A DNA stretch of 17,531 bases from Thermococcus sp. (GTDB taxonomy: Archaea; Methanobacteriota_B; Thermococci; Thermococcales; Thermococcaceae), in NCBI GenBank assembly GCA_027023165.1, contig JALVWX010000023.1, positions 1 through 17,531 of the forward strand. The letters are read 5' to 3'. Each line of letters starts with the position of its first letter. Within the stretch, counting starts at the first letter, position 1. Under the pieces are notes generated by a model that saw only the letters and a list, made by a program, of their open reading frames with translations, was not told where the DNA came from and did not search any database. The translations under genes were made by a program, and so were the position numbers. Shown here in pieces: positions 13,302 to 16,896 of this stretch.

Positions 13302-14714
13302 TCACGGCTTGTTGCCGTGCCCCTGGCCGTTACCGCCGGTCTCCATCGAGGCGTTTATTATCGCCTCATACTCCTCCATACTGAGGAGCTGTGGTTCGTA
13401 CGTCACCCCGTAGTTTGACAGGGTCTTTACAAAGGCCCTGAGGTGGTTCCTGCTGCCCATCATCAGGTTCTCGTAAACCGCGATGATGTCGAGCTTATCC
13501 GTCTGGTCAATCCTCTCCTGCAGGTCTATGATGTCGGTCTCTTCGATGAGCGCTCCCACCTTGAGGGCATCGATAACGCTCTTGCTCCCCTGCTCAACCA
13601 GCTGGTTGTAAAGGGCCTGAAGGTCAGGGTTAGTGAAGACACCAACTGGCTCGTCCTTCGTCGGGTCCGTAATGTTGTACTTCTCAAGGAGGGTCCTGAC
13701 CGCGTTGACGTGGGTTGTTTCACTGTCGGCTATGTTCTTGAATATCTGAAGCCCCCACTTCTCATAGAGGGTAACGTAGACGTCGTGAGCCAGTTTTTCC
13801 TCCTCAACCATGTAGAGGAGGCCGTCTATTTCCTCTTGGGTCAGCTGGCCCGTGGGAGTCGAGTTAACGTATTTCTGGAGGTCCGCTGTGTTCACTGTAC
13901 CGTTCTCATCGGTAACGGCCGGAAGTGTGTCGTTGGCGGGTGGCTGGGCGGTGCTCGGCCCGGTTTCCATCGGGCTGTTGAGGATTGCGTAAAACTCGTC
14001 CTCGCTGAGAACCTGTGGGGTGTACTTAACTCCCCTGCTCTCGAGCTGGCCCACGAAGGAGCGTAGGTGGTTCTCGCTTCCCTTCATGAGGTTCTCGTAG
14101 ACTGTTATTATGTCCACCTTGTTTGTCAGGGAAATCCACTTCTGGAGGTCTTTGATGTCTGTCTCCTCTATGAGGGCACCAACTTTCAGTGCGTCTATCT
14201 CGCTTTTCATTCCCATCTCGATGAGCTGGTTATAGAGATTCTGTATCTCTTCGTTCTGGAACTGACCTACCCCCTCGTTTGCAGTTGGGTCCGTGAGGTT
14301 GTACTTCTCAAGGAGAAGCCTGACGGCATTGACGTGGGTTGTTTCGCTGTCGGCTATATTCTTGAATATCGGCAGTCCCCATTTTTCATAGAGCTTGATG
14401 TAGACGTCATGTGCGAGCTTTTCCTCCTCGACCATGTAGAGAAGGCCGTCCTTTTCCTCCTGCGTCAGCTGGCCGGCCGGAATTGAATCGATGTAGCTCT
14501 TCAGGTCCGCCGTGTTTATTGTCCCGTTCTGGTTGACCGCCGAGGGCATCTGGTCGGCGTTGCCCTTACCTTGGCCGCCAATCTGACTTCCAGCAGCTGT
14601 ACTCGTTGTTGCAGTTCCACTAGTTCCGGTGGTTGTAGTGGTGTTTATACATCCCGCTCCGAGGACGCTCAGAAAGAGAGCCCCGATAAGGAGCAGGCCC
14701 AATATTTTCCTCAT
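13302..14714 (-). CDS. Lipoprotein with two fused DUF2202 (ferritin-like) domains
   Basis: A 470-residue envelope protein. Residues 1-22 are a lipoprotein signal (hydrophobic stretch, then VLGAGC, C22 as lipid-attachment site). A Thr/Ser/Gly linker (to about 50) follows, as is typical of Thermococcales lipoproteins. Two DUF2202 domains follow at about 60-252 and 268-460. DUF2202 is a ferritin-like four-helix family. Each copy keeps YMVEEEKLAHDVY, ADSETTH and GALIEETD, which supply Glu/His candidates for a metal site. Most DUF2202 proteins have one domain, so the tandem form is notable. ATG 14714 has GAGGGGTGA upstream and a TATA at 14761-14771. A role in metal or oxidant handling at the cell surface is inferred from the fold only. 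Confidence 0.88.
   Translation of the reverse strand: MRKILGLLLIGALFLSVLGAGCINTTTTTGTSGTATTSTAAGSQIGGQGKGNADQMPSAVNQNGTINTADLKSYIDSIPAGQLTQEEKDGLLYMVEEEKLAHDVYIKLYEKWGLPIFKNIADSETTHVNAVRLLLEKYNLTDPTANEGVGQFQNEEIQNLYNQLIEMGMKSEIDALKVGALIEETDIKDLQKWISLTNKVDIITVYENLMKGSENHLRSFVGQLESRGVKYTPQVLSEDEFYAILNSPMETGPSTAQPPANDTLPAVTDENGTVNTADLQKYVNSTPTGQLTQEEIDGLLYMVEEEKLAHDVYVTLYEKWGLQIFKNIADSETTHVNAVRTLLEKYNITDPTKDEPVGVFTNPDLQALYNQLVEQGSKSVIDALKVGALIEETDIIDLQERIDQTDKLDIIAVYENLMMGSRNHLRAFVKTLSNYGVTYEPQLLSMEEYEAIINASMETGGNGQGHGNKP
13335..14537 (-). repeat. Intragenic tandem duplication (DUF2202 domains)
   Basis: The two domain-coding segments (14537-13959 and 13913-13335) are homologous at DNA and protein level, with a register of 624 bases (208 codons). 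For example, TTGACGTGGGTTGTTTC recurs at about 13705 and 14329. The peptides YMVEEEKLAHDVY, NIADSETTHVNAVR and KVGALIEETDI are identical in both, whereas the flanking helices differ. This indicates an old duplication with constrained metal-site segments. Confidence 0.85.
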
Positions 14715-14771: not shown

Positions 14772-15230
14772 CCTTTTGGTGTTTTGATTCGTCTATGATA
14801 TTTCGATTTCCGAACTCTTAACATTTTCTGGACTTTTAATTCCCCACGGCTCATAACCCCTATTAAATAATTGGACGGTTCTTTGAGATTATAGTGTGAT
14901 GCCCCTTGATTCTTCGCCTTTTAATAAGAAGTTGTTTTGTAGATGGCTGAAAAGAAAGCCGTATGAAAAGCGGGTTCAATTCACACTGCGATGTTGTGAA
15001 AGGGGAAACCGTTGAGTCGAATGTGAGTCATATCCCCTCATTTTCCAGATAACTGATCTTCGTAAAGCGTTGAAGAGCGTCCACTCTGTAAGGCCCGGTG
15101 CCGTCGAGACGCGGGAGCAGATAGCTGTTCTGGAGGTTCTCCGAGGAATTCCTTGGAATTGGATAAACGACAAAATGTGTGTCCATTACTCGTCTCTTTT
15201 TGCCAGATCGCCCGGATATTCTGGGACAGA
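14772..15230. other. Long spacer between the DUF2202 and his operons
   Basis: About 460 bases without a recognisable gene. The left half is AT-rich. In the right half a plus-strand frame stays open from 15016 to 15309 (97 codons) and contains protein-like text such as LRKALKSVHSVRPGAVETRE, but it has only weak TTG/GTG starts, no ribosome site, and overlaps the his leader region. It may be a gene remnant or chance. An imperfect inverted repeat (15211-15225) abuts the his promoter. Confidence 0.35.
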
Positions 15231-15238
15231 TTTATTTA
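15231..15238 (+). promoter_or_regulatory. TATA box of the his operon
   Basis: TTTATTTA, preceded by purine-rich GGACAGA as a BRE, predicts an RNA start near 15258-15262, immediately before the small leader frame and about 140 bases before hisZ. The imperfect inverted repeat CCCGGATATTCTGGG at 15211-15225 lies just upstream and could be an operator. Confidence 0.6.
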
Positions 15239-15258
15239 GGAGAACTCCAACTTGGGCC

Positions 15259-15395
15259 GGTGATGGCAATGGCCGGAAGTACAATCCCACCCAGACCGGA
15301 AAACCTTGAGATCCTAAAGCCCAACTGGGTGAGCCACTGCCATCATCACCTCTTCTGAACCGGATGTCCATTCCGCCATAATCCAGCAGGGGGTG
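15259..15395 (+). promoter_or_regulatory. Structured his leader RNA with alternative helices
   Basis: Hand pairing finds competing structures. Helix A joins 15259-15273 (leader ribosome site and start) to 15333-15350 (His codons): 14 pairs with a three-base bulge and one mismatch. Helix B, nested inside, joins CACCCAG (15288-15294) to CTGGGTG (15325-15331). Helix C joins CACCTCTT (15347-15354) to AGGGGGTG (15388-15395), the entire hisZ ribosome site, with two G-U pairs. A and C share bases 15347-15350 and exclude one another. No energy was calculated. Confidence 0.5.
15263..15358 (+). CDS. Candidate histidine leader peptide (hisL-like)
   Basis: A 31-codon frame at the 5' end of the predicted his transcript. 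It begins MAMAGST, with a second ATG at 15269, and ends WVSHCHHHLF-stop. Four of the last seven residues are histidine (CAC, CAT, CAT, CAC at codons 25 and 27-29). The GGTGAT at 15259-15264 suits the ATG at 15269; the ATG at 15263 would be nearly leaderless. The stop is 42 bases before the hisZ start. Histidine-rich leaders control his operons in enteric bacteria by ribosome stalling. Here translation-dependent control is inferred; a short His/Cys metal-binding protein or chance is the alternative. Confidence 0.6.
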   Translation: MAMAGSTIPPRPENLEILKPNWVSHCHHHLF

Positions 15396-15400
15396 TTCTC

Positions 15401-16282
15401 TTGAGGCGTTCCATAGAGGACTATCTCAGGTTAGCGGAGATTGGGAACCGTCTGAGGGGTGTTTTCGAACTCTGGGGCTACCGCGAGATGACGTTTCCGG
15501 CAATAGAGGAGTATTCGCCGGAAATAAGAAAGGGAACCAAGCTGGCCTACGACAACACATTCTATCTCTTAAACCCAGATCCAACGTCGAGGATAATGAG
15601 GGCCTTCTCAGACGAGTCGATAAGGCTGTTCTACATAACAGAGGTTCTAACCGGCTCAACGAGGGGGGAATGGCAGGCTGGAGTCGAGATGATAGGGTTT
15701 CCGAAAGAGAGTCTCGTAGAGCCGATCATCGTTGCGATAACCGCCCTCGAAGCCCTTGGCATAGAGGAGTTCTACATCGACATCGGGAGCCTTGAGGTGT
15801 GGAGAAGAGCAACCGAGGGGATCGAGGAGTTCAGGGGGGTTGTCTTCAACGCCCTCGTCAGGAGGAACTTCGAGCCGATAGACCGGCTCCCCATCCCTGG
15901 AGAAAAGAAGGAGGAACTCTGGCGCCTCTTCAACTTCCGAGGAAGGAAGAGCGGTTTTGAGAAGCTCGACTGGCTTTTGGAAGTGGTGGACGACGAAAGG
16001 GTTTTCGTAGACCTTGGAACGGTCAGGCCGCAGCCCTACTACACAGACATCATCTTCGAAATATACTCCCCGGAGGTTGGAAAGCCGATAGGCGGCGGTG
16101 GGGAATACCTGGTCAATGGAAAGCCCGCCGCAGGCTTCTACCTGGATATGGCTGCTCTCTCAAGGCTCTACACCGGGAAGAAGAGGGGGAGGACGAAGCT
16201 TTCCCTTGAGGATCCGGCGAAGGCCTACAGGGAAGCTAAGGGGCTGGTAAAACTCGGGATCCCCGTGGAGGTGGAAAGATGA
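15401..16282 (+). CDS. hisZ: ATP phosphoribosyltransferase regulatory subunit HisZ
   Basis: A 293-residue paralogue of the histidyl-tRNA synthetase catalytic core without the anticodon-binding domain. It serves as the regulatory subunit that the short form of HisG needs for activity and histidine feedback. Class II synthetase motif 2 appears as [20 protein letters not shown] (to residue 94), and the histidine-pocket region as [14 protein letters not shown], followed by GGGGEYL. It is cytoplasmic. The TTG start at 15401 has AGGGGGTG five bases upstream; no better in-frame start exists. It overlaps hisG in an ATGA. The protein contains no histidine residue, which contrasts with the preceding leader frame. 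Confidence 0.9.
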
Positions 16283-16896
16283 GGTTCGTTCTTCCAAAGG
16301 GGCGTCTCCTCAAAGGTTCCCTTGAAGTCCTGAGAAAAGCCGGTTACGATGTTCAAAAGCCCGGCGAGAGAAGGCTCATTGAGAGGTTCAACGGCAATGA
16401 AGTTTTAATCGCGAGGGCTTTCGATGTCCCTGTTTACGTTGAACACGGGGTCGATGTCGGTATTTCGGGAAGCGACGTCGTTGAAGAACGGAAAAGCGAC
16501 GTTTTCGTCCCGCTGGAGCTTCCATTCGGAAAGTGCCGTCTCAGTCTCGCAATGCCCCGGGAAAGGGTGGTCTCACCGGAAGAGATGGACGGCTATAGGG
16601 TTGCCACCAAATACGAGAGAATAACGAGGGAGTACTTCTCAAGGCTGGGAGTTGATGTGGAAATCCTGAAGCTCAGCGGGAGCGTGGAGCTGGCTCCGAA
16701 GGTCGGCATAGCCGATGCTATCGTTGACATCGTTGAGACCGGGGAAACACTGAGGGCGAACGGCCTCGTTGAAGTTGAGAAGGTCATGGACGTTTCGGCC
16801 CAGCTCCTCGTCAACAGAATTTCTCAGAAAACCAAGTTTGAGGAGATAAACGAGCTCGTTTTTTCGATAAAGGAGGTGATTAAAGATGGATTTTGA
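16279..16896 (+). CDS. hisG: ATP phosphoribosyltransferase catalytic subunit, short form HisG
   Basis: Catalyses the first step of histidine synthesis, condensing ATP and PRPP to phosphoribosyl-ATP. At 205 residues it is the short HisG(S) type that lacks the C-terminal regulatory domain and works with HisZ, which is encoded directly upstream with a four-base ATGA overlap. Visible signatures are the N-terminal LPKGRL, the [10 protein letters not shown] loop (61-70) and the PRPP-binding [15 protein letters not shown] (145-159). The 3' end overlaps hisD by 11 bases. Only one histidine (H56) is present in the protein. Confidence 0.96.
16871..16880 (+). promoter_or_regulatory. Consensus ribosome binding site for hisD
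   Basis: AGGAGGTGAT is a full-length match to the complement of the archaeal 16S 3' end, five bases before the hisD ATG, and sits inside the hisG coding sequence. It is much stronger than the AGGGGGTG plus TTG combination of hisZ. Confidence 0.75.

Follow-up and report, generated by a model that had tools for sequence, protein, structure and literature searches.

The his operon of the Thermococcaceae is preceded by a short open reading frame (ORF) that ends in a run of histidine codons. Read from sequence alone, this frame is almost certainly a real and translated leader peptide. Its natural reading is a sensor of charged tRNA-His, which we consider very probable, and a leader-peptide switch that ties his operon expression to the level of charged tRNA-His is a probable, yet less secure, extension of this reading. 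The anatomy of the region speaks for an output in hisZ translation or in factor-dependent termination, and not for a terminator of the bacterial type.

The his locus of the window and its leader frame

The window, meaning the whole stretch of DNA that was analysed, is 17,531 nt long and comes from Thermococcus sp. (GCA_027023165.1, contig JALVWX010000023.1). A preliminary description of this DNA had proposed a 31-codon frame at 15263-15358, ending SHCHHHLF-stop, with histidine codons at positions 25 and 27-29. The coordinates are exact, the translation ends VSHCHHHLF-stop, and the histidine positions were confirmed on it. The same description had set a TATA box at 15231-15238, where the TATA-like TTTATTTA is indeed present, and had counted 42 nt from the leader stop to the hisZ start, which is correct for the TTG at 15401. 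The features of the locus are collected in Table 1.

Table 1. Features of the his locus in the window, with positions counted from its first nucleotide.
Feature	Position	Strand	Basis
TATA box TTTATTTA, his promoter	15231..15238	+	Sequence; first base 32 nt 5' of leader ATG
Leader peptide ORF, MAMAGSTIPPRPENLEILKPNWVSHCHHHLF-stop	15263..15358	+	Translation; equivalent ORF upstream of hisZ in 47/47 loci
WVSHC (TGG GTG AGC CAC TGC), conserved stretch just 5' of His run	15326..15340	+	Alignment; consensus CTGGTGAGCTACTGC
CAT CAT CAC, proposed stall site of a ribosome short of His-tRNA	15341..15349	+	2-4 consecutive His in 47/47 loci
CACCTCTTCT, pyrimidine element, candidate anti-Shine-Dalgarno	15347..15356	+	Complementary to hisZ Shine-Dalgarno
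hisZ Shine-Dalgarno AGGGGGTG	15388..15395	+	Sequence
hisZ, first his operon gene, TTG start, without any His codon	15401..16282	+	
hisG (short form), overlapping the 3' end of hisZ	16279..16896	+	TIGR00070 above cut-off

Because the TATA box begins 32 nt upstream of the leader ATG, the transcript would be expected to start within a few bases of this codon. The Shine-Dalgarno (SD) site of the window leader is poor (-2.6), which, together with the 32 nt between the start of the TATA box and the ATG, suggests either a near-leaderless start or the use of a second in-frame ATG at 15269; GGTGAT stands at 15259-15264. ATG 15269 may be the real start of the leader. The best NCBIfam match of the window hisZ is TIGR00443 (hisZ_biosyn_reg), under the curated cut-off (108 versus 272 bits).

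Two neighbours of the locus are described here for completeness. On the 5' side of the his promoter, the window at 15040-15200 carries an apparent 3' remnant of a phosphatase-like gene, of which we take the motif HCxxGxxRSG to be the mark. This gene is open in L001 (1900-2190), and by eye the window copy seems truncated and frameshifted. Further upstream, on the minus strand (13302-14714), the ORF translation gives a lipoprotein-like protein of two very similar tandem halves.

Conservation of the leader in the Thermococcaceae

Of the 94 Thermococcaceae genomes searched, 46 gave a hisZ match at E<=1e-20, and the upstream regions of all 46, together with the window, gave the 47 loci that were compared. 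Many of these are close relatives, and so the 47 loci do not count as 47 independent cases. A leader was defined as a frame within 250 nt before hisZ that opens with ATG, runs for 10 codons or more and holds at least two consecutive His codons that end at most seven codons from the stop. Such a frame is present in 47/47 real loci. Among dinucleotide shuffles, of which each locus received 20, it arose in 8 of 940, and on the reverse strand it occurs in 3/47 loci. The alignment across relatives that the preliminary description had proposed as a check bears it out, as the start, frame, His run and stop are kept in all 47 loci, while the other codons vary. Leader length ranges from 12 to 43 codons. 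Two further Thermococcaceae genomes stand outside the 47: the contig of G092 ends within hisZ, which gave no match at the cut-off, and the leader is present there; G089 has a hisG fragment at a contig edge and no hisZ.

Typical leaders end in LLVSYCHHH-stop, LLVSYRHH-stop, VTYCHHLF-stop, LRVSLHH-stop or DSLHHPF-stop, and contig 1 of G027 offers a complete example, MVERSIKSRVLSMGASLLFKVTYCHHLF-stop at about 203460-203546, with hisZ starting at about 203598. The weakest are those of L012 (MSLSERPMGIKVLLVMIFHHI-stop, with the end IFHHI-stop and without the usual context), L013 (12 codons, HCHH-stop) and L050 (HHH, then CRLFYN). The exact motif CATCATTGACTNTTCT occurs in 28 places in 27/94 Thermococcaceae genomes: 26 lie before a hisZ of the E<=1e-20 search, one lies before the truncated hisZ of G092, and one, a second copy in G008 that is antisense within another ORF, was rejected as chance. 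A GTG codon is found four codons 5' of the His run in 34/47 rows, a count in which row L025 was read in the wrong frame. The idea of a tRNA-His anticodon mimic for HisZ or HisRS was also rejected, since by eye L034, L036 and rows like them lack the GTG element.

The case for translation draws on the frame and on its surroundings. In the leader stretch, the +1 frame is open in 0/47 loci and the +2 frame in 9/47, the leader frame itself being open by definition of the search. Substitutions among near relatives in the part before the His run number 313, 322 and 302 at codon positions 1, 2 and 3. They are even over the codon positions, and the residues are therefore taken to be free of selection, with the open frame kept. 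An SD-like site (duplex <=-5 kcal, scored without a shuffle control) lies 5' of the leader ATG in 38/47 loci. A lenient scan for TATA-like octamers, which had no shuffle control, placed the start of the best one (6-8 of 8 matches) at a median of 41 nt, with a range of 26-90 nt, 5' of the leader ATG across the 47 loci. Gaps inside alignment A1 span 3 or 6 columns. All 18 gaps inside the ORF are multiples of three, against 7/19 outside it; this indel argument for coding was discarded, as 13 of the 18 stem from different start choices, which leaves 5/5.

The His run lies at or near the leader end in 47/47 loci and varies by whole codons, being HH in 23, HHH in 23 and HHHH in one, with L013 (HCHH) counted as HH. 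Its codons are CAT in 114 cases and CAC in 5 (n=119). The 13 other ORFs of the window hold 13 CAT and 38 CAC codons, and in nine regions of 12-18 kb from other Thermococcaceae CAC outnumbers CAT in every open frame of 250 codons or more. The CAT codons would presumably be read by G-U wobble, if the sole tRNA-His has the anticodon GUG. Histidine is also scarce in the first protein of the operon: HisZ holds 13 His in 13,863 codons (L007-L052 and the window), HisG has 62 in 9,506 over the loci that yielded its frame, and the other window ORFs 51 in 3,820. The near-absence from HisZ is what one would expect of a protein that is needed when histidine is short. HisZ is nearly devoid of histidine despite its likeness to histidyl-tRNA synthetase.

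From the stalled ribosome to hisZ

The proposed mechanism would run as follows. Transcription would start just 5' of the ORF, as the positions of the TATA-like and SD-like sites suggest, and ribosomes would translate the leader, in keeping with its preserved frame. When charged tRNA-His is scarce, the ribosome would stall on the 2-4 His codons, nearly all of them CAT. The stalled ribosome would then cover the pyrimidine element and part of a second element about 30 nt upstream, which the complementarity described below partly supports. The pyrimidine element would otherwise pair with the hisZ SD, so that its covering would allow hisZ to be translated. In a histidine-rich cell, the ribosome would finish and depart, the SD would be sequestered, and hisZ would be poorly initiated; polarity may then reduce the rest of the operon.

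The region does not resemble a bacterial terminator. No terminator-like site was found in the window at 15200-15500, the window being the one locus scanned (mean of 0.3 in shuffles). The longest T-run of the spacer is 2 in the window and at most 5 across the 47 loci, and the spacer from the leader stop to hisZ measures 24-80 nt, with a median of 72 nt. A terminator of the bacterial hisL type is unlikely, because of this missing site, the lack of any T-run above 5, and spacers that go down to 24 nt. At the gathering score, an Rfam search gave no match in the window and two tRNAs only in seven loci, with no leader model; the T-box model of Rfam was unmatched in the window and in these seven loci.

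Masking of the SD is the output we would favour by a narrow judgement, with a pairing that is uneven and, in the window, weak. The pyrimidine element CTnTTCT is conserved after the His run, and on average the leader is most complementary to the hisZ SD region at two offsets, 0 and -30, counted from where the run ends. In group B, which was put together by hand (L016-L019, L021-L023, L026, L029), 13 contiguous pairs occur in 8/9 loci and 11 in L017. These pairs reach from the final His codon and the stop across the SD up to the hisZ start. The window counterpart sets CACCUCUUCUG against CAGCAGGGGGUG. The window also contains AUCACCUCUU, which resembles what we take to be the 16S rRNA tail, AUCACCUCCU.

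Compared with shuffles, the post-His element is better (p<0.1) in 18/43 loci and the upstream element in 24/47. In the window neither element is better, as 16/60 (post-His) and 13/60 (upstream) shuffles were as good. Cognate post-His/SD pairs were also compared with swapped ones, in groups A (7 loci including the window) and C (14 loci), both likewise made by hand. Here 9/2000 permutations were as good in group A and 56/2000 in group C, and a control stretch further upstream gave 1847 and 1762 of 2000. A cognate preference was not clear over all 47 loci (241/2000 as good) or over 27 representatives (489/2000), and in group B the cognate pairing was not better than the swapped one (976/2000). 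The upstream element has no clear cognate preference. In group C the helix is broken, because the middle base of the element, G in 10 loci and A in 4, faces a G.

When the leader was folded at 37 C with a ribosome on the His codons, the median SD gain was 0.17-0.40 kcal with the A site anywhere from -9 to 0, and 0.76 kcal with it 3 nt past the His run. The gain is absent from some groups, and a uniform opening of the SD by the stalled ribosome was set aside, as the thermodynamic gain is weak. A different hairpin was seen in L036, L044 and L048, formed between the His codons and a UGAUG located at the stop of the leader (GCCUUCAUCA/UGAUGAGGC is one instance). Its two arms appear to have changed in a compensatory way in these three sequences.

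On these mixed results of pairing, shuffling and folding, SD masking is held to be the most likely output, and FttA-dependent termination the main rival. The rival keeps the leader and the sensing alike, and would place the output in termination by FttA (aCPSF1) before hisZ: RNA left exposed once the leader has been translated normally would admit the factor, and a ribosome stalled on the His codons would shield it. We regard it as possible, if rather unlikely. PMC12548453 names FttA as the likely cause of polarity in archaea, and termination by this factor would agree with the absence of a terminator-like site in the window and of any T-run above 5 in the 47 spacers. A conserved motif, untranslated in most loci, also lies directly 3' of the proposed stall site. 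However, the spacers leave the factor little room, since hisZ follows the leader after only 24 nt in 3 loci and hisG after 26-28 nt in six outgroup genomes, and the model has no need of the tendency of the downstream motif to complement the SD.

It is improbable that the His reading is a coincidence in a block conserved as a DNA operator or as a protein-binding RNA site. Nucleotide conservation does extend past the stop codon (CTnTTCT), and it includes some synonymous positions (GTG, TAC, CAT). Nevertheless, an upstream ATG shares the frame of the block in 47/47 loci, 38 of them with the SD-like site, the block varies by whole codons, and the outgroup shares the His run and not the block. Slightly less probable still is a leader that boosts hisZ translation by coupling or reinitiation, its His codons being incidental or setting a constant low rate: the next start follows the leader after 24-32 nt in 5/47 loci and after 26-28 nt in the outgroup, yet the median spacing of 72 nt falls outside the range of coupling, which in Haloferax volcanii fades with spacing to little or none above 30 nt (PMC12548453, available part), and the conserved His run and CAT bias would be left unexplained.

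Outgroup leaders, known systems and meaning

The search of the phylum covered 115 genomes, of which 21 lie outside the Thermococcaceae. A leader of different sequence, also with a terminal His run, was found in six outgroup genomes (G100, G102, G103, G105, G106, G108), for example MGIINENVKFDSSIILSCTAHHH-stop. It is present in 6/6 places with a strong hisG match and a long frame, a count that leaves out G108:C179, a second strong hisG at a contig start. These leaders end in HHH in four cases, HHQ in one and YHHN in one, and their stop lies 26-28 nt from the hisG start. Directly after the stop, a four-pair stem CGCC/GGCG (CGUC/GGCG in one), touching the SD GGAGG, could be drawn by eye in 6/6 sequences; it is the predicted minimum free energy structure in 3/6, and a longer overlapping stem wins in the other three. 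A ribosome whose A site is set 6 nt ahead of the stop gives an SD opening gain of 1.2 (L067), 2.2 (L097) and 1.7 kcal (L098), and of at most 0.4 kcal in the other three loci; set 9 nt ahead, it gives at most 0.3 kcal in all six.

A second, weaker hisG paralogue of the outgroup has no leader in the right orientation in 8/9 places, and the HH frames near it were rejected as being on the wrong strand or far off. The HH frames of G109 and G111-G113 were also rejected, since they do not adjoin hisG. The HisG matches G111:C15, G112:C119 and G113:C27 (L109, L108, L110) each contain one in-frame TAG, possibly a recoded stop. In the phylum of the Desulfurococcales genome L006, presumably Thermoproteota, hisG occurs in 52/61 genomes. 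The 30 of these 52 loci that were scanned, with flanks of 1.5 kb, gave no convincing His leader; one GTG frame was seen near hisG. A double-Trp leader was absent from nine trp regions, a search that single-Trp leaders would escape, and an HHLF frame near the trp genes of G011, which crosses a TATA-like stretch before a lipoprotein-like gene, was taken as chance.

Bacterial hisL peptides carry runs of His codons, on which ribosomes stall when charged tRNA-His is low. Like the enterobacterial hisL attenuator, the leader described here is a short ORF that places consecutive His codons ahead of the first his gene, an arrangement found in 47/47 loci, and it is proposed to sense charged tRNA-His through a stalled ribosome. 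The present leader differs in being archaeal, in a His run that usually stands at the very end of the peptide, and in lacking a terminator-like site (window), T-runs above 5 and a relevant Rfam match, with spacers down to 24 nt. In the translational attenuation of ermC and cat, a ribosome stalled on the leader frees the sequestered SD of the next gene, and the same freeing is proposed here. However, the signal would be uncharged tRNA instead of an antibiotic, the host is archaeal, and the pairing is uneven between lineages. In leaders of the tnaC and mgtL type, the stalled ribosome shields the downstream RNA from Rho. Shielding from a termination factor is also what the main rival for the Thermococcaceae leader would involve, except that archaea would use FttA; the literature search found no such leader in archaea. 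The fluoride and preQ1 riboswitch candidates of the Thermococcales (PMC4247193, available part) are cis-acting 5'-UTR elements of the same archaeal group, but they are predicted ligand-binding RNAs, whereas the his leader is a translated ORF.

The open-licence literature, in the portions available and with subscription papers mostly outside its scope, yielded no report of a his leader peptide in archaea. As far as their available text goes, PMC4247193 (2014) describes attenuators and riboswitches as being without direct in vivo experimental support in Archaea, and does not use the word 'histidine' in its main text; PMC8448881 (2021) states that no example of transcription attenuation or antitermination is known in archaea; PMC5316973, on T. 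onnurineus, contains none of 'histidine', 'attenuat' and 'uORF'; and PMC10219788 says in general terms that uORFs act in archaea too, with histidine unmentioned.

For the phylum of the Thermococcales as a whole, we give an even chance to an old, terminator-free form of attenuation, in which a CAU-rich His-run leader and an element that captures the SD of hisZ or hisG would turn on translation of the operon upon starvation for His-tRNA. That the terminal His codons are kept while the rest of the leader drifts suggests a stalled-ribosome switch of the bacterial kind in archaea. If true, Archaea would have their first demonstrated leader-peptide attenuator. With the leader present upstream of hisZ in each of the 46 Thermococcaceae genomes examined that carry hisZ, the question of archaeal attenuation can be tested directly.
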